Origin: Deltaproteobacteria bacterium | Lineage (GTDB): Bacteria; Desulfobacterota_C; Deferrisomatia; Deferrisomatales; JACRMM01 | Reading direction: 5' to 3' | Assembly (NCBI GenBank): GCA_016218905.1 | Contig: JACRCS010000754.1 | Span: 1-17,797, forward strand | Length of the DNA stretch: 17,797 nucleotides | Shown here: one piece after another, positions 592 through 15,266 of the stretch | Numbering within the stretch: the first letter of the stretch is position 1 | Layout: each line of letters opens with the position of its first letter | Translations under genes and position numbers: made by a program | Notes under the pieces: model-generated | The model's input: the letters and a program-made list of their open reading frames with translations, nothing else | The model's database searches: none | Told to the model about the DNA's origin: nothing

Positions 592-2073
592 CTACACCCA
601 CCGTGCGGTGACGGTCTTCTCGTCGAGGAATAGGCGCATGGAGGCCATGCGTGACTTGGCGGAGCCGAGGAAGGACTCCTTCTTGGAGCCGAGCGGAAAG
701 AAGGCGTAGGGCTGGGGCACGGCGACGTTCACCCCGATGTTGCCGACTTCGGCCTCCCGGGTGAACTTCCGGGCGACCTTGCCGCTCTCGGTGAAGATGC
801 ACGCCGAGTGGCCGTAGTTCGTACCGTTGATCCAGGCGAGCGCCTCGTCGAGGCTCTTCGCCCGCATGAGCATCGCCACCGGGCCGAAGGCCTCCTCCTT
901 GGCCGTCGGCATCTCGGGGTTTCCGTTCTCGAGGATGCTCGGGGCGAGGAAGTAGCCCTTCTCGTACCCCTCCACCTTCACGGACCGGCCGTCGAGCACC
1001 ATCTTGCCGCCCTCGGCGAGCGCCCGGTCGATCCAGTCGAGCACCTTCTGGCGCCCCGCCGGCGTGCACATGGGGCCCTGATCGGCCGACTCCTCCAGGC
1101 CGTAGCCGAGCTTCATCGACCGGGCAGCGGCCACGAACTTCTCCTTGAGCTCGTCGTGGCGGTCGCCAACGACGATCACGTTATCCGAGCCGAGGCAGCG
1201 CTGGCCGTTCATGCCGTAGCAGGAGCGGAGCAGCCACTGGGCGGCCTGGTCGTAGTCCGCGTCGGGCATGATCACGACGTTGTTCTTGCCGTTGCCGTTG
1301 AGCGAGGAGACCTTTCCGAGCTCGCCGCACTGGCGGTAGAGGTCCCACCCCGCCGAGGTGGAGCCGATGAAGCCGATCCCCTGGACCTCGGGCTGCCGGA
1401 GGATCTCGGCGTTGATGTGCCGCCCTCCGTGGATGAGGTTCAGGACGCCCTTGGGGAACCCCGCCTCCCAGGCCGCCCGCGTGATCGCGTCGGCGGCGAC
1501 CGGGTCCTGCCGGCTGGGGCTCACGACCACGGTGCAGCCGGCCGCCAGCGCGTACGGAACAAAGGACGACCAGGCGTGCATGGGAATATTACCCGGCGTG
1601 ACGATGAGGAAGGCCCCGAGCGGCTCCCAGACGAGCCACTGGTCGATGCCCGTGGCGAGCTGGTCGAGGTGCTCGTTCTCCTTCACCAGCCCGTAGGCCG
1701 CGGCGCACGCTGACTCCACGTTCTCGATCACCCGGCGCACGGAGCCCCGGGACTCGTCGATCGTGCGGCCGTGGTCCTGCGTGAGAATCCGCGTCAGCTC
1801 GTCGAACTTCTCCTCGAGCTTCGCCCGAAGGTCGAAGAGGAGCTTGGCACGGTCGCGCAGGCAGACCTCCTTCCAGCCCTTGAACGCCCGGTGCGCCGCC
1901 TCCACCGCCGCCCGAGCCTCCTCGTTCGTCGCCTCGGGAAACGTGGCGATCACCTCGCCCGTGGCGGGGTTGGTGGTCTCGTTGACGACGGTCGAGCGCG
2001 ACTCGACCCACTCCCCGTCGATGAGGAGCTTGAGGTTACCGTAGTGCTTCTTCACTTCAGGGAGCAGAGCCAT
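592..2073 (-). CDS. CoA-acylating aldehyde dehydrogenase, methylmalonate-semialdehyde dehydrogenase (MmsA) family; proposed 2-formylglutarate dehydrogenase
   Basis: A 493-residue protein starting at ATG 2073, chosen because GAGGAG lies 6 nt upstream and homology to the family begins here; a longer open frame to 2367 has no family match. The catalytic Cys293 sits in NGQRC. The usual ALDH general-base Glu motif (ELGGK) is replaced by SLNGNGKNN (257-265), as in the acylating MMSDH group. Other landmarks are TPGNIP (159-164), GSTSAG (237-242) and a C-terminal KTVTARW typical of MMSDH. The usual KPSE of the NAD site reads SPSR (185-188). Family members oxidise malonate-type semialdehydes with CoA and NAD+, releasing CO2 and an acyl-CoA. 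It is the last gene of the minus-strand run, 151 nt after its neighbour. In this context 2-formylglutarate is a fitting substrate and glutaryl-CoA the product (inference). An ordinary role in valine or malonate metabolism is the alternative. Confidence 0.85.
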   Translation of the reverse strand: MALLPEVKKHYGNLKLLIDGEWVESRSTVVNETTNPATGEVIATFPEATNEEARAAVEAAHRAFKGWKEVCLRDRAKLLFDLRAKLEEKFDELTRILTQDHGRTIDESRGSVRRVIENVESACAAAYGLVKENEHLDQLATGIDQWLVWEPLGAFLIVTPGNIPMHAWSSFVPYALAAGCTVVVSPSRQDPVAADAITRAAWEAGFPKGVLNLIHGGRHINAEILRQPEVQGIGFIGSTSAGWDLYRQCGELGKVSSLNGNGKNNVVIMPDADYDQAAQWLLRSCYGMNGQRCLGSDNVIVVGDRHDELKEKFVAAARSMKLGYGLEESADQGPMCTPAGRQKVLDWIDRALAEGGKMVLDGRSVKVEGYEKGYFLAPSILENGNPEMPTAKEEAFGPVAMLMRAKSLDEALAWINGTNYGHSACIFTESGKVARKFTREAEVGNIGVNVAVPQPYAFFPLGSKKESFLGSAKSRMASMRLFLDEKTVTARWV

Positions 2074-2079
2074 GGAAAT

Positions 2080-2085
2080 CTCCTC
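2080..2085 (-). promoter_or_regulatory. Ribosome binding site GAGGAG that fixes the dehydrogenase start
   Basis: The minus strand reads GAGGAG, then 6 nt, then the ATG at 2073. This strong site supports the 493-residue protein over an apparent N-terminal extension that would run through the repeat-rich spacer. Confidence 0.7.
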
Positions 2086-2098
2086 AAAAGAACGTGTC

Positions 2099-2209
2099 GC
2101 GTACCGCGTTCTGCGTTCCGTGTGAAAACTCTGGAAAAGAATGTTCTGCGTGCTGCGTACCGCGTTGTGAACCCCGTTCGAGACCCCAAACGTGGAACGC
2201 AGAACGCGG
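2099..2209. repeat. Intergenic repeat cluster with a 16-bp inverted repeat and a 12-bp direct repeat
   Basis: In the 151-nt spacer between the DUF1185 gene and the dehydrogenase, CCGCGTTCTGCGTTCC (2104-2119) returns as its exact reverse complement at 2194-2209. GCGTACCGCGTT occurs directly at 2099-2110 and 2155-2166, and GTTCTGCGT at 2108-2116 and 2143-2151. The RNA could fold into a long-range stem across about 74 nt. There is no U-tract, so this is not a classical terminator. It may be a dispersed intergenic element, an mRNA-stability structure between the upstream seven genes and the dehydrogenase, or a remnant of a mobile repeat. Confidence 0.7.
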
Positions 2210-2224
2210 GACGCTGCACGCGCG

Positions 2225-2803
2225 TCAGCGCAGTCCGTCTTCCTTCTTCGCCTCGTCCTTGGTGAGGCCGCCGACGCGGGGGAGGGGACGGCCGGAGTCG
2301 GTGACCACCAGGGCGACGACGATCTCGTCGCCTCGCGGGGCGTCCTGGACCCGGACGGGCATGGCATCGAAGTGGGTCCGGACGAAGGCGGCGTCCTTGT
2401 AGTGGGTGGGCACGTCGAGCTCGGTCCCCGGGCCCCCCATCTTCTTGGCGGAGGGGATGATCGCCTTGCCGCCTCCGACGGCGGCCCGAAAGGGCGTGCC
2501 GAGCTTCGGATGGAGGATGGCGGCGGCGTGCTCGAGCTCGCCCTGGCTCCCGACGATCGCCCCCTTTCCGTACCCTTCCGCCTGTTCGGGCCGGATCTCC
2601 AGGGCGGCGACGGCCTTCTCGCCGAGGAGCTTCCCGAGGGCGTCGCCGGTCTCGATCAGCTCCGCCAGGTCCTCGACGTAGCGGCCCGCAAAGGGGTTCT
2701 TGATCACGGCGAGCGCAGCGGCCCGCCGGGTCGGCGGGTCGACGGGCCTTCCGGACTCCTTCCGGGTCTCCTCGACCAGGGTCACGATCTTTCGAATCTC
2801 CAT
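2225..2803 (-). CDS. 'Amino acid synthesis' family protein (PF06684/DUF1185), role in this pathway unknown
   Basis: A 192-residue soluble protein with no signal peptide or membrane span. Conserved-looking blocks are VIKNPFAGRYVEDL (33-46), YGKGAIVGSQGELEHAAA (78-95), HPKLGTPFR (98-106), GKAIIPSAKK (112-121), PRGDEIVVAL and a terminal GRPLPRVGGL. They match the family named amino acid synthesis, whose biochemistry is not established to my knowledge. ATG 2803 is preferred over the adjacent GTG at 2806 because GGAGG then sits 6 nt upstream. The start shares one base with the stop of the UPF0280 gene (TGATG), implying translational coupling. Its place directly behind Hnr and the UPF0280 protein suggests an auxiliary step, such as handling a ring-opened or tautomeric intermediate or helping cofactor assembly. 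That is inference only. Confidence 0.8.
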   Translation of the reverse strand: MEIRKIVTLVEETRKESGRPVDPPTRRAAALAVIKNPFAGRYVEDLAELIETGDALGKLLGEKAVAALEIRPEQAEGYGKGAIVGSQGELEHAAAILHPKLGTPFRAAVGGGKAIIPSAKKMGGPGTELDVPTHYKDAAFVRTHFDAMPVRVQDAPRGDEIVVALVVTDSGRPLPRVGGLTKDEAKKEDGLR

Positions 2804-3705
2804 CACACACCTCCCGCGACACTTGCGTTTATGGCTTCACCACCGGGCGAGAACTCGAGTCGCTCGGAGCCCGGAAACCCCACCAGCCGCCGCTCCCCCC
2901 GGAGGAAGAGGAGCGCTCCCCGGATGAGCCCCCTCTCGAGGAAGTCGGCCGCCGTCGCCCCGCCCCGGTCCAGGGCGCGGGCGACCTCCGCCGCCGAGAG
3001 GGGCCCCACCGAACGGGTGACCCTGAGGCCGCGGAGGTCGGTCTCGGGATCGACGCCGCCGGCGAGGACTCTCTCCACGGACCGGGACTCCACGTCCACG
3101 TCGTTGGCGACGAGGGTGGCCGCCGCGTCCGCCGCGGCTCCCGACTCCCCGACCACCGTCACCGCGTCGGCAATGCCCAGGGTGAAGCTCCTCCCGCCGA
3201 ACCCGCTCGTCGCCACCCCGCCCACGCTGTCGGACGCCGTCACCCGGAAGCGCGCCGAGGGGGGCGCTCCGAGCCGGGCCGCCACGCCGACGGTCGCGCT
3301 CTCGCCGGCAGCCAGGCGGATGGCGACGTCCCCGCCGTTGTTCACCAGGATCCAGCTGGCGCCGGCCGCCGCGAGCCAATTGGCGATCGAGTCGGCCACC
3401 GCGCCGGCCACCGCGATCAGAGGCGTCAGGAAGCGCTCCCGGTGGGGAAGCGTCGCCTCCCACATCGCGCCGACCACCGGCGGCAGGGCCTGGGCGTGCC
3501 GGATCCGCCGGGCGTCCGTGGCGACCAGGGTCCGGTACTCGGCCAGCTCCGAGAGCACCTCGAGCGTCCTTCGCCCGGCGGCTTCCAGCAGCGCCGGCCG
3601 CGTCTCGCCTCCCCACCGGGCGGCGATGATGAGGCTCACCGGCCCGCGCTCGACGCGAAGGCGGTCGGGCCCGAGGGGGACGAGCGCGGGCCCGCCTCCG
3701 TTCAA
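2803..3705 (-). CDS. UPF0280-family protein (ApbE flavin-transferase superfamily); proposed Hnr flavinylation factor
   Basis: About 300 residues. Motifs of the UPF0280 branch of the ApbE superfamily are clear: TPLIAVAGAVADSIA (94-108), VNNGGDVAI (121-129, the ApbE GGD segment), GVATSGFGGRSFTLG (163-177) and GESGAAADAAATLVAN (186-201), equivalent to the metal-binding region of ApbE. The start is placed at TTG 3705, which overlaps the hnr stop as TTGA with GGGAGG 3 nt upstream. The next candidate, GTG near residue 23, would cut into the conserved N-terminal strand RGPVSLIIAA. Classical ApbE proteins covalently transfer FMN to Thr/Ser of target proteins. Hnr of E. barkeri is known to carry a covalent flavin, so tight coupling to hnr makes this protein the obvious candidate flavinyltransferase. 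UPF0280 itself has no settled function, so the role is inferred. Confidence 0.8.
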   Translation of the reverse strand: MNGGGPALVPLGPDRLRVERGPVSLIIAARWGGETRPALLEAAGRRTLEVLSELAEYRTLVATDARRIRHAQALPPVVGAMWEATLPHRERFLTPLIAVAGAVADSIANWLAAAGASWILVNNGGDVAIRLAAGESATVGVAARLGAPPSARFRVTASDSVGGVATSGFGGRSFTLGIADAVTVVGESGAAADAAATLVANDVDVESRSVERVLAGGVDPETDLRGLRVTRSVGPLSAAEVARALDRGGATAADFLERGLIRGALLFLRGERRLVGFPGSERLEFSPGGEAINASVAGGV

Positions 3706-5198
3706 GCGCCTCCCAGCGGCCGTACGGCCTCGAGATGTCCCCCCATCTCCTCGTAATCCGAGAGCCTCATCGTGTACTCCACCGGGACCACCAGGGCGGG
3801 GGTGGGGACCCAGGTGAAGAACCCCGCCAGGACCCGCTCCACGTCCACCATGAAGTTGATGCCTCCCCCGGGCAGGAGGAACGTGGGGGCGCCGCCCACT
3901 GTGAGGCGGGCCTTGGCCGCGTGGACGGCGTGGGTAAGCTTGATCGGCTGGCGCGTCACGCCCGCCCGCGCGCTCCCGCCGGTCCCTCCGCAGTAGAGGG
4001 CGGAGACGCGGCTCGGCTGGCAGGTCTCCGTGATGGTCCGGACGGCCTGCCGGGCCGCCTCCGTGAGTTCCACGGGCTCGAGCTCGCCCCCCTCCGTCAC
4101 CCGGAAGAGGGCGGCCTTCTGCCCCGTCGTCTCGGTGACGAGGATTCGGCTCCCGGGGCGGACGTCCCGGACTCCGCCGGGCGCGAAGACGTCCCGGGGC
4201 GCCTCCACCGAGGTCCCGCCCCAGCCCCTCCCGTGGTCTCCGAAGTACCGCCCGGGGGTGCTCTGGCGAAAGCGCAGGCGCGCGCCCGAGGGGACGGTGC
4301 CGAGATAGCGCCCGGCGGCGTGCTCGGTCAGGAGTCCGGTGAGGTGGCTGTCGAGCACCACCACCTCGTCGGCCGCTTCCTTGAGGAGGGGCGCAAAGAG
4401 GCCGAGCGTCGCGCTGCCGCAGCCGACCCGCATCTTCTCCATCCGGACGCCGTCCACGACCGGTGCGCTCCCCACCCGGAGCTCCAGGCGGCTCCCGCCC
4501 TCGATCCGGAGCTTCACGGGCTTGCGGTTCGCCAGCGCGGTCATGACGCGCGCGGCGCGGAAGCCGTGCGGCCCCGTCAGGGTGTTCGCCCCTCCCAGGG
4601 AAAGGATCTTCGAGCCGTACTCTTCCGTGGTGAGGTGGCCGATCGGCTCTCCGCCGGCCAGCACCGCGGCGCGCTCTTCGCCGAGGCTCGCGTCCGTGTC
4701 GATCTTCACCTTCACGCTCGAGTAGCTGAGCGGCGCCTCGGTGACGACCGTCACCACGTCGACCCCGTGGCTCACGCCCCGGACGATGACCGGGGCGGGC
4801 TTGCAGTCCGGGTACGTGGTCCCGGCGCCGAGGCCCGTGATCAGGGGCTCCCGGATCGCGGGCTCCCAGTCCGGGCCGACGACCTCCCGCACGTCCTCGA
4901 ACGTGTGGAGCGGCACATTCCGGACGAGCTCTCCGCCCCGGTTCACGTACCGCTGGCAGGCCCCGGTCTTCCCCTCCGCCACGAAGCACCCGATGGGGCA
5001 GGAGCCGCACCTGGCGCGACCGTCCGGCACCGCGGGCTTCGCCGCGACCGCGCCCTCGGGGCAGACCCGCAGGCACACCCGGCACTCGACGCAGTCGCCC
5101 GTGATCCTCGCCTTCTTCTCGACGAGCTCCACCGCCTCCAGGGGGCAGTTAGCGACGCACTTGCCGCAGGCGGTGCAGCGGTCGGCGAGGATCTCCAT
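3702..5198 (-). CDS. hnr: 6-hydroxynicotinate reductase (ferredoxin-type, iron-sulfur flavoprotein)
   Basis: A 498-residue protein starting at ATG 5198, just after the enamidase stop; its ribosome binding site is weak, so coupling is likely. The N-terminus carries two 4Fe-4S motifs, C8-C11-C14-C18 and C36-C39-C42-C46, then a third set C64-C67-C71-C81. This fits the E. barkeri enzyme, reported to have two [4Fe-4S] clusters, one [2Fe-2S] cluster and a covalently bound flavin. The catalytic part contains TGLGAGTTYPDCKPAP and MRVGCGSATLG, plus a glycine-rich FLLPGGGINFMVDVER near the C-terminus. The reaction reduces 6-hydroxynicotinate to 1,4,5,6-tetrahydro-6-oxonicotinate using low-potential electrons. 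The direct neighbour, enamidase, takes exactly that product, which greatly strengthens the call. No separate ferredoxin gene is in the window. The covalent flavin site is not known to me; GAGTT and CGSAT are the two candidate Thr-containing segments. Confidence 0.85.
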   Translation of the reverse strand: MEILADRCTACGKCVANCPLEAVELVEKKARITGDCVECRVCLRVCPEGAVAAKPAVPDGRARCGSCPIGCFVAEGKTGACQRYVNRGGELVRNVPLHTFEDVREVVGPDWEPAIREPLITGLGAGTTYPDCKPAPVIVRGVSHGVDVVTVVTEAPLSYSSVKVKIDTDASLGEERAAVLAGGEPIGHLTTEEYGSKILSLGGANTLTGPHGFRAARVMTALANRKPVKLRIEGGSRLELRVGSAPVVDGVRMEKMRVGCGSATLGLFAPLLKEAADEVVVLDSHLTGLLTEHAAGRYLGTVPSGARLRFRQSTPGRYFGDHGRGWGGTSVEAPRDVFAPGGVRDVRPGSRILVTETTGQKAALFRVTEGGELEPVELTEAARQAVRTITETCQPSRVSALYCGGTGGSARAGVTRQPIKLTHAVHAAKARLTVGGAPTFLLPGGGINFMVDVERVLAGFFTWVPTPALVVPVEYTMRLSDYEEMGGHLEAVRPLGGA

Positions 5199-5205
5199 CG
5201 CCAGC

Positions 5206-6360
5206 CTACACCACCTTTGCCGTCCGCTTCGGAGGCGGCGTGTTGCGGCTCAGCTTGACCACGATCTCCCCGTCGACGAGAACGAAGCTCACCCCCGGGG
5301 TATCCCCGGCGCGGTATGCCGAGAGCACGTCGTCTCCCACCGAGCCCATGGGGGCGTCGCAGAAGACGAGGTCCGCCGGCGCGCCCACGGCAATCCGCCC
5401 CTGGGGGAGCTTGTGGCAGCGGGCGGTGTTGCCGGTCGCCCAGGCGATCGCCACCGCCGGGTCGATCTCGGCGAGGCCACAGAGGTGGGCGATCACCCGC
5501 TGGATCCCGAGGGGGACCACCCCGGTGCCGGAGGGCGCATCGTTGCCGATGATCACTCGCTCCCAGGCGCCGGCGTCGGCCGCCTCCCGGGCGGCGTGGA
5601 CCGCCATCTTCCCGTTCCCGCAGTGCACGATCTCTACGTAGAGGCTGCTCTCGCGGACGATCCGGGAGATCTCCGCGGGGCTCACCGCCGTGGGGCCGCC
5701 GTTCGTGTGGCACGCCACGTCGGCGCCGGCCGCGAGCACTTGCTCCGCCGTCACGGTCGAGGAGCCGGGGATCGACGTCCCGCCCATGTGCATGAGGACC
5801 ACCATCCCGTGCTTCTTCGCCCAGGCGACCATGGGGGCAGCCTCCTCGGGCTGCTTGATCGCGCCGAGCCCGATCTCCCCGACGATCCGGACGCCATTGC
5901 GGGCCATGTCGGCGAAGTCCTCCTCCACGAGCCCCTTCTCGAGGATCGCGGCCCCGCCGATCACCTTCATCCCGCCGGGCCGGATCGCGGCGAACGACTT
6001 CGCGGCCAGGATGGCGAGGGCCTTCACGCCCGCCGGGTCCTTGGGCCGGCCGGGCAGGTGCACCTCGCCCGCGCTCACCGCCGTCGTCACGCCGCCGTGG
6101 ACCGAGCTCTCGAGGAACCCGACCTGGTTCTGGCGGGGGGTGAAGTCCCCGAGGACGGGGTGCATGTGGGAGTCGATGAGACCGGGCGTCACGCCGCAGC
6201 CCTGGGCGTCGATGACGCGGTCGACGCCCGAGACTTCCGCCCCCCGGCCCACCGCCGCGATCTTGCCGTCGGCGACGAGGAGGGTGTCGGCGTCGAGGAG
6301 GGGTTTGGCCGCGTCGCCCGATACCAGCACTCCGATGTTCACGATCTTGGTGGTTGCCAT
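5206..6360 (-). CDS. ena: Enamidase (amidohydrolase superfamily): 1,4,5,6-tetrahydro-6-oxonicotinate to 2-formylglutarate + ammonia
   Basis: A 384-residue cytoplasmic amidohydrolase starting at ATG 6360 with GAGGAG 5 nt upstream. It matches remembered E. barkeri enamidase almost block by block: N-terminal KIVNIGVLVSGD, HGGVTT (88-93), HLPGRPKDPAG (101-111), GGTSIPGSSTVTA (193-205), GNDAPSGTG (272-280) and the ending SRNTPPPKRTAKVV. All binuclear metal ligands expected for the Fe-Zn enzyme are present: H65 and H67 in HMH, bridging E162, H191, H218 and D274. Enamidase hydrolyses the cyclic enamide to (S)-2-formylglutarate, releasing ammonia. It lies 2 nt behind the molybdopterin subunit and 7 nt ahead of hnr, so hydroxylation, reduction and ring opening are encoded together. 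Other amidohydrolases such as dihydroorotases share the fold but not these blocks. Confidence 0.93.
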   Translation of the reverse strand: MATTKIVNIGVLVSGDAAKPLLDADTLLVADGKIAAVGRGAEVSGVDRVIDAQGCGVTPGLIDSHMHPVLGDFTPRQNQVGFLESSVHGGVTTAVSAGEVHLPGRPKDPAGVKALAILAAKSFAAIRPGGMKVIGGAAILEKGLVEEDFADMARNGVRIVGEIGLGAIKQPEEAAPMVAWAKKHGMVVLMHMGGTSIPGSSTVTAEQVLAAGADVACHTNGGPTAVSPAEISRIVRESSLYVEIVHCGNGKMAVHAAREAADAGAWERVIIGNDAPSGTGVVPLGIQRVIAHLCGLAEIDPAVAIAWATGNTARCHKLPQGRIAVGAPADLVFCDAPMGSVGDDVLSAYRAGDTPGVSFVLVDGEIVVKLSRNTPPPKRTAKVV

Positions 6361-6362
6361 GG

Positions 6363-8630
6363 CTACTCCTCTCTTCCGGACCCGGGGAGCGCCGCCAGGA
6401 CGCGCTCCAGGTTGGCAGGCAGATGGTCGATGCGCGCTCCGCAGGCGTCCGCGAGGGCGTTCACGATGGCCGGCGTGGTGGGGATGAGGGCGGGCTCGCC
6501 GACGCCCTTGGCGCCGAAGGGGCCGGTGGGCTCCGGCTTCTCGACGTAGGCCGGCGTCACGCGCGGCACGTCCGCGGCCGTGGGCATGAGGTAGGTGTCG
6601 AAGTTCGTGTCGCCGCCGGGCGTGTACTCCTCCATCAGGGCCATTCCCAACCCCATGGCGGCGCCGCCGGTGATCTGCCCGAGCACGCCGGGCGGATGGA
6701 TCGCGCGGCCGACGTCGTGGGCCGCGGCGAGCCGTTCCACCCGGACCTCCGCGGTGGCCCGATCCACCGCCACCCGGGCCACCTGCGCCGCGAAGGCGTA
6801 GGTCGCGTACGGGCGTCCCTGTCCCTCTGCGTCGAGGGAGGTGGTGTCGGGGTCGAAGCGGCCCTCGCCGGAGGCGCGCTCGCCGCTCCGCCGGAACGCC
6901 GCCGCCACCTCGGCGAGGCTCACGCCGCGGGTCGGCATGGAGCGGCTCGAGATCGTGCCGCCGGCGAGGACGAGGTCGTCCCGCGGGATCTCCAGGAGGT
7001 CCTCCGCCCGCCGGAGGAGCGCCTCCCGCAGGGCCTCGGACGCCCGCAGCACGGCGCCGCCGGAGACGTACGTCTGCCGGCTCGCCGAGCTCGCGCCGGC
7101 GTTCTCGGTGCGCGCGGTGTCTCCCCGCACCAACCGAAGCTCCTCCGGGGCTTCCCCGAGCACCTCTGCGCAGACCGAGCGCAGGACCTGGTCCGAGCCC
7201 TGGCCGATCTCCGCGGCCCCCGCGTCGAGAGTAAAGGTGCCGTCCTCCTCGAGCTCCACCCGGGCCGCCGAGGGGTTCGACATGGCCGTGTTCCCGATGC
7301 CGTAGTACATGGCCCCGACGCCGATGCCCCGGAGGCAGTCGCTCGGCTCGCAGGCGTCGAGACGCCTTCGCCACCGGTCGCGGAGCCGGCCCACCTTCTC
7401 CAGGCACTCGGCGAGGCCGACGCTCGGCCCCAAGACCTGCCCCGTGACGGTCGTGTCCCCGGGGCGGAGCGCGTTTCGGAGCCGGAGCTCCAGGGGGTCG
7501 AGCCCCAAGGCCTCGGCGAGGAGGTCCATCTGGCTCTCGTGGGCGAACGCCGTTTGGGGCGTGCCGAAGCCCCTCATGGCCCCGCAGACGGGCCGGTTCG
7601 TGTAGACGGCGCGGCTGCGGACCCGGACGTTGGGGACGCGATAGGGGCCGGCTGCGTGGACCGCGGCCCGGACCGCCACCGCGAGGCCGTAGGAGGCGTA
7701 GGCCCCGGTGTCGGCGGTAAGTTCGGCCTCCACGGCGAGCAGCCGGCCGTCCCGGTCGGCGGCGCTGCAGTAGCGCATTACGAGGGGGTGGCGCTTGGCC
7801 GAGGCGAGGAGCGACTCCTCGCGGGAGTAGACGAGCCGCGAGGGCCGGCCGGTCAGCAGCGTGCAGAGCGCGACGTAGGGTTGGACCGAGAGGTCGAGCT
7901 TCCCGCCGAAGCCTCCCCCGGTGGGCGCCTGGAGCACCCTGAGGCGCTCGGGCGGAAGCGCCAGGAGCCGGCAGAGATCGTCCCGGTCGTAGTGGGGATT
8001 CTGCGTCGACGCTGCGACCGTGAGGATGTCGCCTTCCCAGTAGGCGACGCCCGCCTCCGGCTCGAGATACGCGTGTTCGACGAGCGACGTCCGATACGTG
8101 CGGCTCACCACGGCACGGGCGCGGGCGAGGGCCTCGTCGACGTCACCCCGGACGACCCGCTGCTCGAAGAGGACGTTGCCCTTCTCCCGTCCCTCCTGGA
8201 CGAGCGGAGCTCCCGGCTCCAGGGCCTCGCCGGGGCTCCAGAGCCCCGGCAGCGTCTCGGCGTCGAGCTCTACCCGGCGGGCGCCCTCCCGGGCCGCCTC
8301 CGGCGTCTCGGCGGCCACGAGCGCTACGGCCTCCCCGGCGAAGCGGACCTGCTCGGAGGCGAGCATGGGCTGGTCGGCGGTGCTCCGGATGATCCCGAAG
8401 CGGTTCTCACCGGGGACGTCGGCGGCCGTGAAGACCCCGACCACTCCGGGGACGCTCCGTGCCCCGTCCAGCCGGAGCGCTCGGACCCGGACGGGTGCCT
8501 CCTTCGCCCGGGCGACCGCGAGGTGGAGGACGCCGGGGATCCTGAGGTCCGCGGCGAAGCGGAGCGATCCGAGCACCTTCTCGAGGGCGTCGAAGCGCGG
8601 GGCGCGGCTACCGACCGCGGCGGCCGTCAT
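6363..8630 (-). CDS. Molybdopterin-binding subunit of a xanthine-dehydrogenase-family hydroxylase; probable nicotinate dehydrogenase large subunit
   Basis: A 755-residue chain starting at ATG 8630, overlapping the FAD subunit stop by 4 nt (ATGA). Family landmarks run in order: the a/b-hammerhead N-terminus, QVRFAGEAVALVAAE (94-108), GGGFGGK (238-244), AMRGFG (351-356), GQGSDQ (477-482) and GAKGVGEPAL (706-715) with the catalytic Glu712. The full length of a single large subunit is present. In E. barkeri nicotinate dehydrogenase the corresponding part is split into ndhL and ndhM, so this version is unsplit. These enzymes hydroxylate N-heteroaromatics or oxidise aldehydes with water as the oxygen source. 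Substrate cannot be read from sequence. The adjoining ena and hnr genes make nicotinate to 6-hydroxynicotinate the most economical assignment. The CO-dehydrogenase active-site loop with Cys is not seen. Confidence 0.85.
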   Translation of the reverse strand: MTAAAVGSRAPRFDALEKVLGSLRFAADLRIPGVLHLAVARAKEAPVRVRALRLDGARSVPGVVGVFTAADVPGENRFGIIRSTADQPMLASEQVRFAGEAVALVAAETPEAAREGARRVELDAETLPGLWSPGEALEPGAPLVQEGREKGNVLFEQRVVRGDVDEALARARAVVSRTYRTSLVEHAYLEPEAGVAYWEGDILTVAASTQNPHYDRDDLCRLLALPPERLRVLQAPTGGGFGGKLDLSVQPYVALCTLLTGRPSRLVYSREESLLASAKRHPLVMRYCSAADRDGRLLAVEAELTADTGAYASYGLAVAVRAAVHAAGPYRVPNVRVRSRAVYTNRPVCGAMRGFGTPQTAFAHESQMDLLAEALGLDPLELRLRNALRPGDTTVTGQVLGPSVGLAECLEKVGRLRDRWRRRLDACEPSDCLRGIGVGAMYYGIGNTAMSNPSAARVELEEDGTFTLDAGAAEIGQGSDQVLRSVCAEVLGEAPEELRLVRGDTARTENAGASSASRQTYVSGGAVLRASEALREALLRRAEDLLEIPRDDLVLAGGTISSRSMPTRGVSLAEVAAAFRRSGERASGEGRFDPDTTSLDAEGQGRPYATYAFAAQVARVAVDRATAEVRVERLAAAHDVGRAIHPPGVLGQITGGAAMGLGMALMEEYTPGGDTNFDTYLMPTAADVPRVTPAYVEKPEPTGPFGAKGVGEPALIPTTPAIVNALADACGARIDHLPANLERVLAALPGSGREE

Positions 8631-9478
8631 GAGCCCGCCGCTCCGAACGCCTCGCGGGCCGCTCGCGCCACGAGGGAGCGCACGACGGGGAGCTTGTAGG
8701 CCATCGAAGCGCGCGCCCCGGAGACGGCCCGAACCTCGGCTTCCGCCGCCCGCCCGGCGGCGTCGAAACTCGCGTCGCCGAGGTCCCGCCGGAGAGCCTC
8801 CTCCGCCGCGCGAAGTCGACCCGGGCGCGGGAAGACCGCACCGACCGACACCCGCGCGAAGCCCTCCGCGCCGTTCGCGAGCACCGCGACGGAGAGGCGG
8901 CTGATGGCGACGGCGCGGCGGCGGCCGACCTTTAGGAACGCGTATCCGTGCTCCGGTTGCTTCGGGACGAGGACTGCCACGAGGAGCTCCGCCGGGCCGA
9001 GCGCCGTCCGTCCGGGTCGCAGGAAGAACTCGTCGACGGAGCAGACCCTCCGGCCGTGGGCGCCGGCAACCTCGAAGCGGGCCTCGAGCGCGGCGAGCGC
9101 TGGCAGGGTATCGGCGGCCACGGAGGCGTTGACGACGTTTCCGCCGAGCGTGCCGAGGTTTCGGACCTGGACCGATCCCACGACGGCCGAGGCGCGGGCG
9201 AGCACCGGTGCGTACCGGCGGACGAGCGGATCCATCGCCACCCGCGCGTGGGAGACTGCCGCCCCGATCCGGAGCGTTCCGTCCGCTTCCGCGCGGAGCT
9301 CCTGGAGCTCCCCGATGCCCGTCACGTCCACGACCGCCGACGGCGCGACCTTCCCGGCGCGCACGGCCACGATCAGGTCGGTCCCGCCGGCGAGCACCCG
9401 GCCTTCGCGCTCGCCGGCCAGGGCCTCGAGGGCCTCTCCGACGCTCCGGGGCGCGAGGTAGTGGAAAGCGGCGCTCAA
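8627..9478 (-). CDS. FAD-binding subunit of the molybdenum hydroxylase (CoxM/NdhF-like)
   Basis: A 283-residue protein with the two FAD motifs of the family: AGGTDLIV (30-37) and VRNLGTLGGNVVNASVAADT (105-124). The C-terminal CO-dehydrogenase flavoprotein domain follows. No ATG lies near the expected N-terminus. The start is TTG 9478, giving LSAAFHYLAPRSV, which aligns with usual starts (FxYxxPxS). It overlaps the preceding TGA stop as TTGA, with GGAGG 4 nt upstream. The subunit passes electrons from the [2Fe-2S] clusters via FAD to NAD(P)+ or another acceptor. Gene order S-F-L and 4-nt overlaps on both sides indicate a stoichiometric three-subunit complex. Confidence 0.88.
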   Translation of the reverse strand: MSAAFHYLAPRSVGEALEALAGEREGRVLAGGTDLIVAVRAGKVAPSAVVDVTGIGELQELRAEADGTLRIGAAVSHARVAMDPLVRRYAPVLARASAVVGSVQVRNLGTLGGNVVNASVAADTLPALAALEARFEVAGAHGRRVCSVDEFFLRPGRTALGPAELLVAVLVPKQPEHGYAFLKVGRRRAVAISRLSVAVLANGAEGFARVSVGAVFPRPGRLRAAEEALRRDLGDASFDAAGRAAEAEVRAVSGARASMAYKLPVVRSLVARAAREAFGAAGS

Positions 9479-9954
9479 GGGGCCTCCCGGCGGCTCGCGG
9501 TGAAGACCGCCTCGACGATCTGGGTATAGCCGGTGCAGCGGCAGAGATTTCCCGAGAGCGCGGTCCGAATCTCCTCCCGCGTCGGGCGGGGTGTCCGGTC
9601 GAGGAGCGCTTTGGCCGAGAGCAGCATCCCCGGCGTGCAGAAGCCGCACTGGACCGCATGCTTCTCGAGGAACGCCTTCTGGAGAGGGTGGAGCGCCTCG
9701 GGCCCGCCGAGCCCTTCGACCGTGGTGACGCTGCGGCCCTGGACCTTGCCGGCGAGCAAGAGGCAGGCGTTCACGGCCTCGCCGTCCAGGAGCACGGTGC
9801 ACGCCCCGCACTCGCCCACCCCGCACCCCTCCTTCGCGCCGGTGAGGTCGAAGCGCTCGCGCAGGAGCCAGAGGAGCGTGCGGCTCGGGTCGACCTCGGC
9901 CGTCACCGGGCGGCCATTGAGCACGAAGTGGATCGCCTCCTCGCTGCCGTCCAT
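9475..9954 (-). CDS. [2Fe-2S] subunit of the molybdenum hydroxylase (CoxS/NdhS-like)
   Basis: A 159-residue protein with both iron-sulfur sites of the family: plant-type C44-C49-C52...C64 (EGCGVGECGAC) and the helical-domain site C103-C106...C138-C140 (QCGFCTPGM and NLCRCTGY). The start at ATG 9954 has GGAGG 8 nt upstream and gives the standard length. It is the first gene of the tightly packed block C, 91 nt behind the MttB-family gene. The LCRCTGY form is that of FAD-partnered hydroxylases, consistent with the FAD subunit immediately downstream. It shuttles electrons from the molybdopterin centre to FAD. Confidence 0.92.
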   Translation of the reverse strand: MDGSEEAIHFVLNGRPVTAEVDPSRTLLWLLRERFDLTGAKEGCGVGECGACTVLLDGEAVNACLLLAGKVQGRSVTTVEGLGGPEALHPLQKAFLEKHAVQCGFCTPGMLLSAKALLDRTPRPTREEIRTALSGNLCRCTGYTQIVEAVFTASRREAP

Positions 9955-10045: not shown

Positions 10046-11488
10046 CTAACGAACCAGACGAGCCACCGCGTCCGAGACCAGGCGATCGAACTCCCCGCCC
10101 AGCTCCGGAGAGACTGCCCCTTCGCCTCCCTGCGCGAGGAGTGCCCTGTATCGCTCCTCGGCCCGGGAGACGATGTCCTTCTTTCCCTTCGCCTCCCAGT
10201 CCTCGCGCGACTCGCGGGTGAAGAGCTTGGTCCGGTGGGCGTCCCGGCAGTGCTCGAACGTGTGGGTGGTTGTCAGAAACTGAGTGCCGGGAGACGCGGA
10301 GAGGAGATCCTCCCAGGCGAGGGTGTCGTCGTCGACGTCCAGGCCGCGCACCATCCGCTTCATGATCCCGACAGCTTCCTCGTCGATCAGCAGCTGCAGC
10401 GGGCTGATTGCGGTGGCAACTTCGAGTTGCCCCGCCGCCCCGAGGATGTCGCCGCCCACGGCGGCGATCGTAGCGCCCAGCAGCGTGCTCTCCATCATCG
10501 ACTGCCCCCCCACGGCCGGCGAATCGGTGCCCCACCCGTAGGTGTGCGTCGGAATCCCGAAGGCGGCCTTCATGAACTCCACGGCGGCAGCCTTTCCTTG
10601 GATGGCCTCCACGCTGGACTGCATGCTCGAGCCCGTCGCCATGTCGGCGGCGAAGACGAGCGGGGTAGCCACGGCCGGCGCACCCGGGTTGAGCACCTGG
10701 GAGACGGCGAGCATCGCCAGGATCTCCGTCGCCGCCAGCAGGATCGTACCCTGGATGGTCATCGGGGCAGTCGTACCCGCGGAGGGGAGGCTGCACAGGT
10801 GCACGGGGATCCCCAGCGGGCAGGCTTGCACCATGACCTCCAGATCCATGTACTTGAATTCGAGAGGGGTCAGGGAGCAGGTGATCATGCTGATGACCGG
10901 CCGCTCGCGAAGCCGTGCCTGGCCGCCGCTCACCGACGCGCCCAGCCGGATCAGGTATTCGACGCTCTCGGCGCTGTACGGCTGGACCCAGACGTGCTTC
11001 CTCGTGTTCTTGAGCGTGCAGCACAGCGCGTGAATGTCCGCGGTCTGCGTCGGCACGTCGCTGGGGGAGGGGAAGGGGCAGAAATCCATGCCTTCCAGCC
11101 GGTCCACCAGCCCGGCCCACTTCTCAATATCGGCGATGGTGACTCTGCGCTTCCGACCGGAGTCCGGGTCCAGATAGAACGGTGCGCCGGTATTCGGCCG
11201 GGCAAAGAAGCTTCCTTCCGCGCTCGGCACCGTGAAGTCGTGGCGCGAATCGGCGCCGGCGTGGAACACCTTCCTGGGCGCCGTCTGGAGGACCTGTTCG
11301 AGAAGGACGCTCGGAAACCGTACTCTCTTCTTTCCGAGGTCGACCCGAGCTCCCGCCTCGGCGAGCTTCTCCAGCACCTTCCCGTGGTCCATCTTCACGC
11401 CGTTGTTCTCCAGGAGCTGGAAGACCCGGTCGCGAAGGAGCGCGCACTGCTCTTTGGAAAAGAAGCTCAATCGGGCGTTGAGCGGCAT
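10046..11488 (-). CDS. MttB-family (trimethylamine methyltransferase-like) non-pyrrolysine quaternary-amine methyltransferase
   Basis: A 480-residue protein. ATG 11488 is chosen because GGAGAA lies about 7 nt upstream and the MttB fold begins there; an upstream TTG at 11527 would overlap the regulator gene. Family features include ARPNTGAPFYLDPDSG early on, a central TPLEFKYMDLEVM, HTYGWGTDSPAVGGQ, GGDILGAAGQLE and a C-terminal segment ending in the SREDWEAKGKKD type. The frame contains no internal amber codon, so the pyrrolysine of true MttB is absent, as in MtgB, MtpB, MtcB and MtyB. Those enzymes move a methyl group from glycine betaine, proline betaine, carnitine or gamma-butyrobetaine to a corrinoid protein. 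No corrinoid protein gene is in this window. Next to nicotinate genes, trigonelline (N-methylnicotinate) is an attractive substrate; that is inference. Confidence 0.82.
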   Translation of the reverse strand: MPLNARLSFFSKEQCALLRDRVFQLLENNGVKMDHGKVLEKLAEAGARVDLGKKRVRFPSVLLEQVLQTAPRKVFHAGADSRHDFTVPSAEGSFFARPNTGAPFYLDPDSGRKRRVTIADIEKWAGLVDRLEGMDFCPFPSPSDVPTQTADIHALCCTLKNTRKHVWVQPYSAESVEYLIRLGASVSGGQARLRERPVISMITCSLTPLEFKYMDLEVMVQACPLGIPVHLCSLPSAGTTAPMTIQGTILLAATEILAMLAVSQVLNPGAPAVATPLVFAADMATGSSMQSSVEAIQGKAAAVEFMKAAFGIPTHTYGWGTDSPAVGGQSMMESTLLGATIAAVGGDILGAAGQLEVATAISPLQLLIDEEAVGIMKRMVRGLDVDDDTLAWEDLLSASPGTQFLTTTHTFEHCRDAHRTKLFTRESREDWEAKGKKDIVSRAEERYRALLAQGGEGAVSPELGGEFDRLVSDAVARLVR

Positions 11489-11504
11489 GGTCCACTTCTC
11501 CGCG

Positions 11505-12050
11505 TTACCAAGTCGGGGGGCAAACAACCCACACGACCTCTACATCCTCCTCCGACTCGTTGACCCATGTGTGGGGGAGTACGGACGAGTAATAAAAGCT
11601 CTCCTTCGGACGGACTTGAAACGTCTCGTCGCCGACGGTGATCGTGAGCGCGCCTTTTATGACGAACCCGAACTCCTGGCCTTGATGGGTATAGGGTTCT
11701 CTCGAGCCTCCAAGCGGTTTGATCGTGGTGAAGAACGGCTGCATCAGACGTCCTTGTGTCGATGGCACCAGCTGTTGAACTTTGGCGTCCCATCGGCTCA
11801 GGTAGACGTTCTTCCTATCGAGTTCCCGGGTGACGATCTGCTCCCCTCCGTCGTTGTTGTCGAAGAAGTCGACGATATTGACGGACAAAGCTGCGGCGAT
11901 CTTCTTGAGCATGGCGATAGAAGGCGAGGTATGCCCATTCTCGATCTGGGAGATGAGCGCACCCGTGCAACCGGCAGCGTCGGCCAGGCCTTTCAAGGTC
12001 AGGTGCCGCGCCTCTCGGAAGGCCTTCAGCTTGGTCCCGATCTCGTCCAC
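11505..12050 (-). CDS. XRE-family transcriptional regulator with C-terminal cupin domain
   Basis: A 181-residue protein. Residues 6-60 form a Cro/C1-type helix-turn-helix (LKGLADAAGCTGALISQIEN, then TSPSIAMLKKIAAAL). Residues 105-179 form a small cupin barrel with H122 and E126 (YTHQGQEFGFVIKG) and H160 (LPHTW). This layout is that of regulators such as PuuR and SutR, in which the cupin senses a small ligand. The start is GTG 12050 with GAGGA about 4 nt upstream; no in-frame ATG lies nearby. It stops 16 nt before the methyltransferase start, so the two are co-transcribed. It probably controls its own promoter through the palindrome upstream and perhaps the whole downstream run. Ligand unknown. 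Confidence 0.88.
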   Translation of the reverse strand: MDEIGTKLKAFREARHLTLKGLADAAGCTGALISQIENGHTSPSIAMLKKIAAALSVNIVDFFDNNDGGEQIVTRELDRKNVYLSRWDAKVQQLVPSTQGRLMQPFFTTIKPLGGSREPYTHQGQEFGFVIKGALTITVGDETFQVRPKESFYYSSVLPHTWVNESEEDVEVVWVVCPPTW

Positions 12051-12238: not shown

Positions 12239-13240
12239 CTATTTGATGGACTCGATCAAGGCCTTATGGGCCATGTAGGTTTCGTAGACTCCGAGAGCGA
12301 CGTCTTTGGTGTCCTTGGGGCTGAGCACCGGCTTCGTCGTGTAGTTCGCCTGCCGCATCTTGCTTTCCAGTTCCGGATCGTTGAGGGCGGAGGAGACTGC
12401 CTTCTCGAGGACCGCCCTGACGTCGGCGGGCAGATTGGGCGGGGCGAAGAGAGTGTTTCCCGAGGCCATGACCTCCATCACGTTCTGGCTGATGTTGATG
12501 CCGATCTCCTTGGCCGTCGGGACGTTCGAGAGCTCCGGCACGCGGCGCTCCGAAGCGACGAACACGGGCTGCAACTTGCCTTCGCTGGCCGTGATGTGTT
12601 TGCTTGCGCTGTCCCAATTGAAGAAGAAGAGATCGACGTCTCCCCTCATGGTGGCGACCGCGGTTTCCGGAAACCCGTCGTACGTGATGAACACGGGCGT
12701 GAAGCTCAACTCCTTGGCGAGGAGCGCGGCCTGGAAGACCGTGGAGGAGGTCCCCCCGATCTTGACCTGCTGTCCCTTCAGATCCTTGATGCTCTTGAAG
12801 CGGCTTCTCGCACTGAAGACGACCATGTAGGGCGCGTACCCCGTCCTGCAGAAGTACGTCAGCTCTTTCGGGTTCCGCTTGCCGAGCTCGTCTCGGACCA
12901 GGAGAAGGCCGATCGAATTGGTGGCCGTAATCCCCATCGTGTACCCGTCCGGCTTGGCGTCGAAGGCCTTCAGGAGCCCGACCTTTCCCCCGGCTGTCGG
13001 CTGGTTCTCGACGATCACCTCCGCCTCTTTGGGAAGGTACTTCTTGATGTAGTTCGCGAGAATCCGTCCCTGGGTGTCGACTCCTCCGCCCGGCTTGAAG
13101 GGGACCACGAGGGTGATCGTGTGGTCGGGATAAGAGGCTCCGAACGACTCGCCGCCCACGAGAGCAGCGCCGAGCGCGAAGAGCGCCGCAAAACCGACCA
13201 CCGTCCAGTGCTTCGTTCGTTGTGCCTTCCTTCTTTCCAT
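12239..13240 (-). CDS. tctC: Tripartite tricarboxylate transporter substrate-binding protein (TctC/Bug family)
   Basis: A 333-residue secreted protein. A basic N-terminus (ERRKAQRTK) and a hydrophobic core (about 13-30) precede a likely signal-peptidase site near FGA|SYP (residue 35). The mature protein opens with YPDHTITLVVPFKPGGGVDTQGR, the hallmark start of Bug/TctC proteins (VPF.PGG..D..R). PTAGGKVG (about 81-88) and PDGYTMG (97-103) follow the family pattern. ATG 13240 is fixed by AGGAGG 7 nt upstream. It acts in the periplasm, delivering a carboxylate-bearing ligand to the TctA/TctB permease encoded 70 nt upstream. Bug proteins bind many ligands, nicotinate and other aromatic carboxylates among them, so import of the pathway substrate is possible but unproved. 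Confidence 0.9.
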   Translation of the reverse strand: MERRKAQRTKHWTVVGFAALFALGAALVGGESFGASYPDHTITLVVPFKPGGGVDTQGRILANYIKKYLPKEAEVIVENQPTAGGKVGLLKAFDAKPDGYTMGITATNSIGLLLVRDELGKRNPKELTYFCRTGYAPYMVVFSARSRFKSIKDLKGQQVKIGGTSSTVFQAALLAKELSFTPVFITYDGFPETAVATMRGDVDLFFFNWDSASKHITASEGKLQPVFVASERRVPELSNVPTAKEIGINISQNVMEVMASGNTLFAPPNLPADVRAVLEKAVSSALNDPELESKMRQANYTTKPVLSPKDTKDVALGVYETYMAHKALIESIK

Positions 13241-13247
13241 GTTCGGA

Positions 13248-13253
13248 CCTCCT
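13248..13253 (-). promoter_or_regulatory. Ribosome binding site AGGAGG that fixes the tctC start
   Basis: AGGAGG followed by 7 nt and ATG 13240 decides between this start and a longer open frame reaching 13360, whose extra residues would precede the signal peptide. Confidence 0.7.
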
Positions 13254-13310
13254 CTGTTGTCGTTCCGACGTTCGGCGCGCGCCTGTGCCGATTCGTTTTG
13301 CGTGGCGAGA

Positions 13311-15266
13311 TCAGACACTGATGAGGCCAGCCAGGGGGATCTGGAGAGCCTGGCCGACAAAGTAGAGGCTCGCCGTCAAGCCGGCTGCAGTGGGGACGGA
13401 AACCTGCCAGCGCCGATACCCGGCGAACCGGGAAGCGACCAGCACGTACACGCCGGTCGCGAGGGGCAGCCCGAGCAGAAGAAAGAGGAAGAGGTAGACG
13501 ACGTACCCTGCAAAGGAGAGCCAGGCAGACACGCCCGCCTGCGACGGCTCCGAGCTCGCCGGGAGAGGAGCGGAGCGGAAGAGAGCGCGAAGCGCCGGGG
13601 CGAGGAGATAGAGGCTCAACGCCAGGCCCACCACGGAGGCCATGCGCGGGAGCAGGGCTGCGTCCCGGCTGTACTCGCCGGACTTCCAGAGGACCAGACC
13701 GAACAACAGGATAGCGAAGGTCAGGAGGGCCACTTCGACGGACGCAGGCGCCTTCGTCTTCGATTCCGCCGTTGCAGCGAGGGAGGCGTCCGCCTTCTTG
13801 CGCCGGAAGAGGGAGGAAACGAAGGGCCACGCGAGGAACGCGAGAGTTGCCACGATGATGGCCAGACAGATCGGGCGCGTGAAGAAGATGGAATACGAGC
13901 CGAGCCCCACCCGGAGCGCCCGGTGGAAGTTGACCTCCACCAGCGGGCCCAGCAAGACGCCCAACAGCAACGAAACGGTCGGATACCGAGCCTTTTCGGA
14001 AAGAAAGCCGAGAACGCCCAACACGATCATTGCGCCGACGTCGAAAGCGGTATTCCTCTCGACGTAGGCCCCCAAGAAACAGAGCACCAGAACGACCGGA
14101 GCCAAGATCGCATTCGGGACGAGCGCGACCTTTGCGAAGTACTTCGCCACCGAGAATCCGGTGATCAGCAGGCACGCCTGCGTGAGCAGGATCCCCGCGA
14201 AGATCGCGTAAGGAAGGCTGCCCGACTGCATGAACATGGGTCCCGGCTGGATACCGTGGATGATGAGCGCACCCATCAGGATCGCCCCCGTCAACGAGCC
14301 GGGGATCCCCAGCGTGAAGCTGGGGATCAGGTCGCCGACGACGCAGGATCCCTTGCTCACCTCGGCGGCGGTCAGCCCCGCGACGGCTCCGCGGCCGAAT
14401 TCGTCCCGCTCCCGGGAGTATTTCTTCTCGACCAGATAGCCCGTCACCGTGGCGAGCGTCGTCCCGAGGGCCGGAAGGATGCCGATGAAGAGCCCCACGA
14501 TCGCCGACCTCGCGACCGTCATCGGTCGCTTCAGGATCTCCACGACGCCGGCGAGAGAGCGGTCTCTGGCGGCCGTAAGTTCGAGCGCGTTCTGCTGCGG
14601 GCCTTTCTCGAAGAGGTCGGTCACCTGGGAGAGCGCGAAGAGCCCGAGCATCGAGATGACGACGGGGATCCCGCCCTCCAAAGACAGGATCCCGAACGAG
14701 AAGCGGGAGGTCAGGCCCGCAATGGGATCAGCGCCCACGCAGGAGATGACGATGCCGACGCTCGCCCAGAGGATTCCCTTGAGCGTCTCCTCCTTGGACG
14801 CGATGGAGACCAGACCTAGAGCCATGACGCCGAGGGCGAAGTACTCGGGCGCGCCGATCTCGATGGCGAAGGCCGTGAGCGGCTTCGCGATGGCGATCAG
14901 GAGGATCCAGCCGAACAACCCGCCGAGGAAGGAGCCGAAAGCCGCGATTCCGAGCGCCATTCCGCCCCGGCCCTGCCGCGTGAGGGCGTAGCCGTCCCAA
15001 CAGGAGGGGACGGACACCGGACTGCCGGGTATGTTCGTCAGGATCGAAGTTACGGAGTCTCCGTAGCAGCCGGTCGCGTGGATCGCGCAGAGGAAGATGA
15101 GCGCGGAGACGGGATCCATCCCGAAGGTGAAGGGCAGCATCACGGCGACGCCGAAGGCGGCGCCCACGGCCGGAAGCACTCCGATGATCAGCCCGAAGAA
15201 GTTCCCCGCCAGGAGGTACAGGAGATTGATCGGCTTGAGCGCAATCAGGAAACCCTCAACGAACAT
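13311..15266 (-). CDS. TctA-TctB fusion, permease of a tripartite tricarboxylate transporter
   Basis: A 651-residue inner-membrane protein. Residues 1 to about 490 are a complete TctA with two related halves: GLIIGVLPAVGAAFG (25-39) mirrors GLFIGILPALGTTLA (258-272), and TNIPGSPVSV (77-86) mirrors FTLGIPGSLTG (317-327). After the charged linker SLFRRKKADASLAATAESKT, residues about 508-651 carry four hydrophobic spans typical of TctB. TctA and TctB are usually separate genes, so this is a natural fusion. The start at ATG 15266 has GGAGG 5 nt upstream and lies within the end of the preceding oxidoreductase gene (11-nt overlap). Together with TctC it forms a cation-coupled, binding-protein-dependent carboxylate importer. 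Confidence 0.9.
   Translation of the reverse strand: MFVEGFLIALKPINLLYLLAGNFFGLIIGVLPAVGAAFGVAVMLPFTFGMDPVSALIFLCAIHATGCYGDSVTSILTNIPGSPVSVPSCWDGYALTRQGRGGMALGIAAFGSFLGGLFGWILLIAIAKPLTAFAIEIGAPEYFALGVMALGLVSIASKEETLKGILWASVGIVISCVGADPIAGLTSRFSFGILSLEGGIPVVISMLGLFALSQVTDLFEKGPQQNALELTAARDRSLAGVVEILKRPMTVARSAIVGLFIGILPALGTTLATVTGYLVEKKYSRERDEFGRGAVAGLTAAEVSKGSCVVGDLIPSFTLGIPGSLTGAILMGALIIHGIQPGPMFMQSGSLPYAIFAGILLTQACLLITGFSVAKYFAKVALVPNAILAPVVLVLCFLGAYVERNTAFDVGAMIVLGVLGFLSEKARYPTVSLLLGVLLGPLVEVNFHRALRVGLGSYSIFFTRPICLAIIVATLAFLAWPFVSSLFRRKKADASLAATAESKTKAPASVEVALLTFAILLFGLVLWKSGEYSRDAALLPRMASVVGLALSLYLLAPALRALFRSAPLPASSEPSQAGVSAWLSFAGYVVYLFLFLLLGLPLATGVYVLVASRFAGYRRWQVSVPTAAGLTASLYFVGQALQIPLAGLISV

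Follow-up and report, generated by a model that had tools for sequence, protein, structure and literature searches.

We analysed a 17,797-nucleotide stretch of DNA from a deltaproteobacterium (GenBank assembly GCA_016218905.1, contig JACRCS010000754.1; hereafter the window), in which the block at positions 592..9954 encodes predicted enzymes of reductive nicotinate breakdown together with an aldehyde dehydrogenase (ALDH) that resembles methylmalonate-semialdehyde dehydrogenase (MMSDH). We propose that this cluster specifies a B12-free reductive nicotinate route ending in a CoA ester, with the ALDH giving glutaryl-CoA, and we put the probability of this reading at about 0.63. The proposal draws on the gene content of the cluster, the catalytic residues of the ALDH, its conserved linkage to the enamidase gene (ena) and the exclusion of the B12-dependent branch, each of which we observed directly. 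Nicotinate fermentation in E. barkeri proceeds through Ndh, Hnr and Ena, and then through Hgd, Hmd, Mgm, Mii, Dmd and Dml. As in E. barkeri, genes of Ndh, Hnr and Ena type are grouped in a single cluster in the window; unlike E. barkeri, the window has an MMSDH-like ALDH in place of the genes of the lower, B12-dependent branch.

In the list of open reading frames, every gene of the block lies on the minus strand, and the order of transcription is NdhS-type, NdhF-type, fused NdhL/M, enamidase, Hnr, UPF0280-type, PF06684 and ALDH. The initial annotation had read an upper nicotinate pathway from the hydroxylase, Hnr and enamidase, and the open reading frames bear this out. It had left unnamed two small conserved proteins encoded between Hnr and the ALDH, which are the UPF0280-type and PF06684 products. 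The predicted features are:

592..2073, minus strand: MMSDH-like ALDH of CoA-acylating type (E1 clade, defined below), without the Glu base; from PDB and TIGR01722 matches and alignment
2225..2806, minus strand: PF06684 (AA_synth) protein, related to solved structure 2qtp
2803..3702, minus strand: UPF0280/DUF375-type protein, start codon uncertain; predicted fold resembles ApbE-type flavin transferases
3702..5198, minus strand: 6-hydroxynicotinate reductase (Hnr); 2[4Fe-4S] ferredoxin domain at the N-terminus, followed by the reductase core
5206..6360, minus strand: enamidase (Ena); 2vun match, invariant H65, H67, E162, H191, H218 and D274
6363..8630, minus strand: fused NdhL/NdhM-type molybdopterin subunit of nicotinate hydroxylase; best PDB match 3hrd
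8627..9487, minus strand: NdhF-type FAD subunit, start approximate; from family and PDB matches
9475..9954, minus strand: NdhS-type 2Fe-2S subunit; from family and PDB matches

The dehydrogenase belongs to a separate clade

The ten best matches of the window ALDH in the PDB are all MMSDHs (best 5tjr, E 4e-102), and its MMSDH label is a best-match assignment. Among the matches listed, it is 38-43% identical to MMSDH-like proteins outside two sister subclades that we call E1 (reference: the window ALDH) and E2 (reference: the ALDH of locus L033). For members of both subclades, solved MMSDHs outscore every other solved ALDH by a wide margin. We aligned 58 sequences and built a tree from them: 31 E1 (the window included), 11 E2 and 16 canonical MMSDHs, 12 of the last from genomes that also hold an ena locus. 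ALDH pieces of fewer than 380 residues (L014, L028) and L052_2 were left out; a 53-residue E2 piece (L011) is counted among the loci below and is absent from every alignment, and the canonical MMSDH of G022 C55, which had no locus, is absent from the tree. E1, E2 and the canonical MMSDHs each formed one group, with E1 and E2 together at support 98/88; the tree was midpoint-rooted, so their sisterhood is as drawn. The window ALDH lies outside the canonical group.

Catalytic residues are strongly conserved across this set. R292, C293, N162 and E394 are present in all 58 rows, and R114 is present in 55 (31/31 E1, 11/11 E2 and 13/16 canonical, the other three having Lys); we assume that R114 and R292 bind the substrate α-carboxylate, as in MMSDH. 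At the place of the general base (the ELGGK motif), Glu is found in 0/58 rows: position 258 is I, L or V in E1 (Leu258 in the window), C in E2, and A, S, C or L in canonical enzymes. The description of the window enzyme as a CoA-acylating type of ALDH with Cys293 and without the base Glu is thus upheld. Since the catalytic residues are kept and no Glu stands at the base place, the chemistry of E1 and E2 should be CoA-acylating. The window ALDH is therefore like MMSDHs of the IolA/MmsA type (1t90, 5tjr) in its Cys nucleophile, oxyanion Asn, two Arg and missing Glu base, and unlike them in its separate clade, its score below the family cut-off, its altered pocket, K/R464, a Ser for Lys192 and its linkage to ena.

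The pocket differs at three places, which we located by alignment and ALDH2 numbering and which we take to line the substrate pocket in other aldehyde dehydrogenases. The W177 place holds W in 15/16 canonical rows, S in 31/31 E1 and Y in 11/11 E2; the F465 place holds F in 15/16 canonical rows, L in 30/30 aligned E1 and V in 11/11 E2. Position 464 is K or R in 41/41 aligned E1 and E2 rows (K464 in the window) and in none of the 16 canonical rows, which have W, M, H, A, Y or I there. To take a carboxyethyl side chain, replacing methyl, the enzyme would be predicted to need just such changes, with more room in the pocket and an additional positive charge; our guess is that K/R464 contacts the substrate.

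Linkage of the dehydrogenase to enamidase

We scanned contigs with an enamidase alignment, found 267 relatives and kept the best 80 loci, scoring an ALDH as E1 if at least 55% identical to the window ALDH and as E2 if at least 55% identical to the L033 protein. The ALDH is present in 44 loci (32 E1, 12 E2) and genes of the B12 branch in five (L009, L063, L071, L074, L076); no locus combines the two, and 31 have neither. The E1 locus L069 belongs to Desulfospira joergensenii DSM 10085. Where the flanks extend at least 5.5 kb to the left and at least 4.5 kb to the right of Ena (n = 38), the corresponding numbers are 28 with the ALDH, five with the B12 branch and five with neither. The ALDH is on the Ena strand in 44/44 loci, upstream of Ena in 33 and downstream in 11.

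We extended this comparison to whole genomes, using 297 from Thermodesulfobacteriota, the phylum of G001, which is the Deferrisomatales genome of locus L002. Ena was scored at E 1e-70, E1 at no less than 56% identity to the window ALDH, with the next match at 43%, and E2 at no less than 57% to the L033 ALDH, with the next match at 47%, identity thresholds that were fixed after the gaps had been seen. Ena was found in 49 genomes, E1 in 33 and E2 in 10, with E1 and E2 never in the same genome. The initial annotation had suggested surveying genomes with ena and hnr for this ALDH against hgd, hmd and mgm, and the result favours its pairing: Ena accompanies the ALDH in 42 of 43 genomes (Fisher p 1.5e-42, which is not a true probability because the genomes are related), and both lower branches coincide in 0/80 loci. 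Ena and the ALDH share one contig in 31 of these 42 genomes, always within 8.3 kb and on the same strand in 30/31. In G221, the sole ALDH genome without Ena, the ALDH and PF06684 genes lie close to one end of a contig of 6.8 kb (L124). It is well supported that the ALDH is not a chance neighbour, and that it is genetically coupled to ena/hnr in genomes of three phyla.

The B12-dependent branch is found elsewhere

The clusters of L071, L074 and L076 continue with 3-hydroxyisobutyrate-dehydrogenase-type, serine-dehydratase-like, two aconitase-type, B12-binding mutase and PrpF-type genes, which we take to encode Hgd, Hmd, Dmd, Mgm and Mii; MutL is also present in some B12-branch loci. Genes for Hgd, Hmd, Mgm and Mii occur in 0/44 loci carrying the ALDH, and the window has no match at 1e-10 to Hgd-, Hmd-, Dmd-, Mgm-, Mii- or MutL-type queries. 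A relative of methyleneglutarate mutase was found in 0/297 Thermodesulfobacteriota genomes and in 4/4 control genomes. We also examined 179 genomes from a second phylum, that of G025 (L076), of which seven have Ena at 55% identity or more and three more have weaker matches. In six of the seven a full-length mutase is present and nothing matches the window ALDH at 1e-90. G426, the seventh, is without the mutase; its E2 ALDH, 65% identical to the L033 protein, is encoded 2.3 kb from Ena. The suggestion that the ALDH would bypass the B12-dependent E. barkeri branch is thus supported in so far as the two exclude each other at the 80 loci.

The upper pathway and two small proteins

The window enamidase matches 2vun (ENAMIDASE) in the PDB with E 7e-133 and is 57% identical to the E. 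barkeri enzyme. H65, H67, E162, H191, H218 and D274, invariant among 12 aligned sequences, are presumably the ligand set of the binuclear metal in 2vun. The molybdopterin subunit has nicotinate dehydrogenase 3hrd chain A as its best PDB match (E 1.4e-114), with its second half matched by chain B; the enzyme is of nicotinate-hydroxylase type, with nicotinate as its predicted substrate. Hnr has two 4Fe-4S motifs, its relatives carry the JGI or NCBI name '6-hydroxynicotinate reductase', and its eight cluster Cys are invariant across 24 aligned rows. A Foldseek search with the Hnr model, in which the core was not folded separately, gave no match at E 0.001 or better; the VIA-align rows for Hnr cover almost entirely residues 1-84, the ferredoxin domain.

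Hnr of the E. barkeri type presumably bears a covalent flavin. The model of the UPF0280-type protein (mean pLDDT 91.3) matches DVU1097 (2o34, E 3e-10) and then the ApbE/FmnB flavin transferases (E 5e-4 and 9e-4; TM about 0.5), and its gene usually stands directly after hnr; by homology the same is true in four stretches from aerobes (L119-L122). The ApbE-like fold and this position suggest that the UPF0280-type protein may attach the covalent flavin of Hnr. Our literature search found no paper pairing 'UPF0280' with 'flavin'. The PF06684 gene is retained whichever lower branch the ena/hnr cluster has, and in aerobes as well; hence its product probably functions ahead of the point where the two branches part. 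No function has been assigned to 2qtp and 3byq, its relatives of solved structure. An isochorismatase-family gene adjoins the cluster in 12 loci (e.g. L019 6074-6796, L077 5566-6333). We take nicotinamidase to be a member of this family, and these genes are possibly nicotinamidases, which fits nicotinate as the substrate of the pathway.

The clade is absent from the aerobe clusters examined

The initial annotation had extended the short branch to aerobes of the Azorhizobium type. We examined eight plasmid stretches from aerobes (L111-L114, L119-L122), drawn from 25 records with enamidase and 26 with Hnr. In six of the eight, no ALDH matches E1 or E2 at 1e-10. The other two (L111, L113) have a dehydrogenase annotated as succinate-semialdehyde dehydrogenase (SSADH), 2 and 4 kb from the enamidase gene, that is 27-31% identical and has a Glu-containing ELGG motif. 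As the aerobe clusters examined lack the E1/E2 clade, the extension of the short branch to Azorhizobium finds no support in them. The aerobic nicotinate pathway of Azorhizobium caulinodans and Bradyrhizobiaceae SG-6C is reported in PMC3511419 to run via glutarate, unlike the glutaryl-CoA route proposed here. In L119-L122, homologues of Hnr, UPF0280 and PF06684 stand together, and the four Hnr proteins are without the 2[4Fe-4S] ferredoxin domain at their N-terminus. L120, L121 and L122 have a gene for a ferredoxin-NADP reductase nearby; genes of hydantoinase/acetophenone-carboxylase type occur in L119, L120 and L121, where the stretch contains no Ena.

Possible fate of glutaryl-CoA

We searched for glutaryl-CoA dehydrogenase with profile NF045552 (Acd; curated cut-off 470), using 100 Ena-negative genomes for comparison. 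The check suggested in the initial annotation, to look for this enzyme in the same genome, gave an equivocal answer. At a looser E of 1e-125 it is enriched, with matches in 36/43 ALDH genomes and 27/100 Ena-negative genomes (p 2.7e-10); over the curated cut-off it is not, with 13/43 and 21/100 (p 0.28). At 1e-125 the profile also matches in 4/7 Ena genomes without the ALDH, and in none of eight mutase genomes (G023, G024, G025, G357, G362, G367, G410, G423). Mutase genome G022 has two matches below the cut-off, and G426, with its E2 ALDH, has one over it.

Proof from individual enzymes was sought among 23 acyl-CoA dehydrogenases of G046 and G264 and rejected: the aerobic motif YEGTHD is absent from all 23, and L142, one of them, is closest to ordinary acyl-CoA dehydrogenases. 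When NF045552 was run on 10 of the 23, one protein in G046 came just above the cut-off (L144, 474.3 against 470). At the place that we take to bind the glutaryl carboxylate, Arg is found in the proteins from near relatives of the window (L144, L147, L162 and L167) and also in L159, L160, L165 and L166, and Gly in L161, L163, L164, L168 and L169. We treat this borderline enzyme of a near relative as a candidate only, and consider a sink for glutaryl-CoA no more than plausible.

Proposed route and alternatives

In the route that we propose, Ndh would convert nicotinate to 6-hydroxynicotinate, and Hnr, perhaps flavinylated by the UPF0280-type protein, would reduce this to tetrahydro-6-oxonicotinate, which enamidase would open to 2-formylglutarate. 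This β-oxo acid is a homologue of methylmalonate semialdehyde. Hydride transfer from the Cys293 thiohemiacetal in the E1-clade ALDH would leave a thioester β to the carboxylate; the acyl-enzyme would lose CO2 as in MMSDH, and CoA would then release glutaryl-CoA, so that the net reaction would be 2-formylglutarate + CoA + NAD+ -> glutaryl-CoA + CO2 + NADH. We infer 2-formylglutarate as the substrate, the decarboxylation, and glutaryl-CoA as the product. One ALDH step would replace the B12-dependent hydroxymethylglutarate/methyleneglutarate branch. It would also replace the decarboxylation, oxidation and then CoA transfer that Kitts reportedly described for Azorhizobium in 1992. We lean slightly towards the wider view that E1 and E2 are dedicated 2-formylglutarate dehydrogenases, and that the B12-free lower branch is widespread in Thermodesulfobacteriota and found also in lineages of Bacillota and Chloroflexota.

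Several observations weigh against this reading. Against TIGR01722 (CoA-acylating MMSDH) the window ALDH scores 395.4 bits, less than the curated cut-off of 448.5; 17/17 E1 genes fall below that cut-off and 4/4 E2 genes above it. E1 has an unexplained Ser (31/31) where 16/16 canonical rows have Lys192, which we assume usually binds the NAD ribose. The 31 of 80 loci with neither branch include the well-flanked L013, L020, L022, L029 and L056. The ALDH is missing from seven of the 49 Ena genomes. The enamidases of two of these are distant ones only (50% and 45%); in G136, G138 and G197 the contig with the enamidase is no longer than about 11 kb; in G261 an Hgd-like gene adjoins the cluster and no mutase was found in the genome; and in G137 the cluster, on a contig of 1.09 Mb, has no ALDH with it. 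The G426 cluster (L123, 5365-8314), which is outside the 80 loci, pairs its E2 ALDH with a serine-dehydratase-like (Hmd-type) gene and has no Hgd-like or mutase match; it is an unexplained mixed lower branch that runs counter to a clean split. To these we add the lack of enrichment of NF045552 at its cut-off, and the position of the best candidate in near relatives, which is in a different operon and adjoins genes for a CoA-ligase, a thiolase and a 2-oxoacid ferredoxin oxidoreductase rather than ena.

We consider it unlikely, although this is the best of the alternatives, that 2-formylglutarate decarboxylates first, spontaneously or by another enzyme, and that the ALDH then oxidises glutarate semialdehyde to glutaryl-CoA or glutarate. 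Such a sequence would match the order said to have been reported for Azorhizobium. It would also fit the pathway via glutarate that PMC3511419 states for A. caulinodans. Two aerobe plasmids have an SSADH-annotated, Glu-base ALDH less than 5 kb from Ena, and either reaction fits the same gene cluster. However, both ena-linked clades have solved MMSDHs as by far their best-scoring relatives among solved ALDHs, and both keep the two Arg places to which we assign the α-carboxylate role. No recognisable decarboxylase was found among the gene families recurring in at least five loci, a set that leaves some single-locus genes unidentified.

It is improbable that the ring substrate is a related N-heteroaromatic acid rather than nicotinate, with parallel chemistry and another 2-formyl acid as the ALDH substrate. 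Both Hnr and Ena belong to very large families (of about 8000 candidates scored for each, 7472 and 7906, respectively, were matches), and hydantoinase-type genes occur in some Hnr clusters that show no Ena within the stretch read; yet the best PDB match of the hydroxylase is a nicotinate dehydrogenase, the enamidase is 57% identical to that of E. barkeri with the presumed ligand set kept, and isochorismatase-family genes, the family to which we assign nicotinamidase, occur in 12 loci. Finally, MMSDH is the best family for the ALDH in both PDB and NCBIfam, but an ordinary valine, inositol or β-alanine MMSDH lying near ena by chance is very hard to reconcile with a clade of its own, apart from the 16 canonical MMSDHs (of which 12 come from genomes with an ena locus), with Ena in 42/43 genomes that hold the clade, and with 17/17 E1 genes below the MMSDH cut-off.

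Neighbouring genes and repeats

The gap between the PF06684 and ALDH genes contains a 27-nt inverted repeat (2093-2119 and 2194-2220, 89% complementary) and further direct repeats. A gene for an MttB-family methyltransferase without in-frame TAG (10046-11527) lies on the same strand, 91 bp upstream of ndhS; its relatives are in L132 (61%), L063 (41%) and L076 (38%), and in L076 a corrinoid protein gene (2119-2754) directly precedes the MttB-family gene. The window protein might demethylate trigonelline (N-methylnicotinate) and so feed the pathway. Further along are genes for TctC and a fused TctA-TctB of the tripartite tricarboxylate transporter type (12239-15446), beside the gene for another Mo hydroxylase, fused to a Fer2_2 domain (15256-17796) and truncated at the window end.

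Implications

The upper pathway and the MMSDH fold were already known; we did not meet the pairing of the ALDH with ena, or the subclade, in the literature searched. No paper joining 'methylmalonate semialdehyde dehydrogenase' and 'formylglutarate' was found, in a search that covered few subscription journals and is therefore weak evidence of novelty. If the proposed route is correct, it would explain how many anaerobes bring nicotinate carbon into central metabolism without the B12-dependent rearrangement of E. barkeri. The MMSDH family would gain a new substrate and a new product, and a name could be given to a large group of genes whose best match is MMSDH although they score below its cut-off. 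The K/R464 and W177 changes offer ready mutants.

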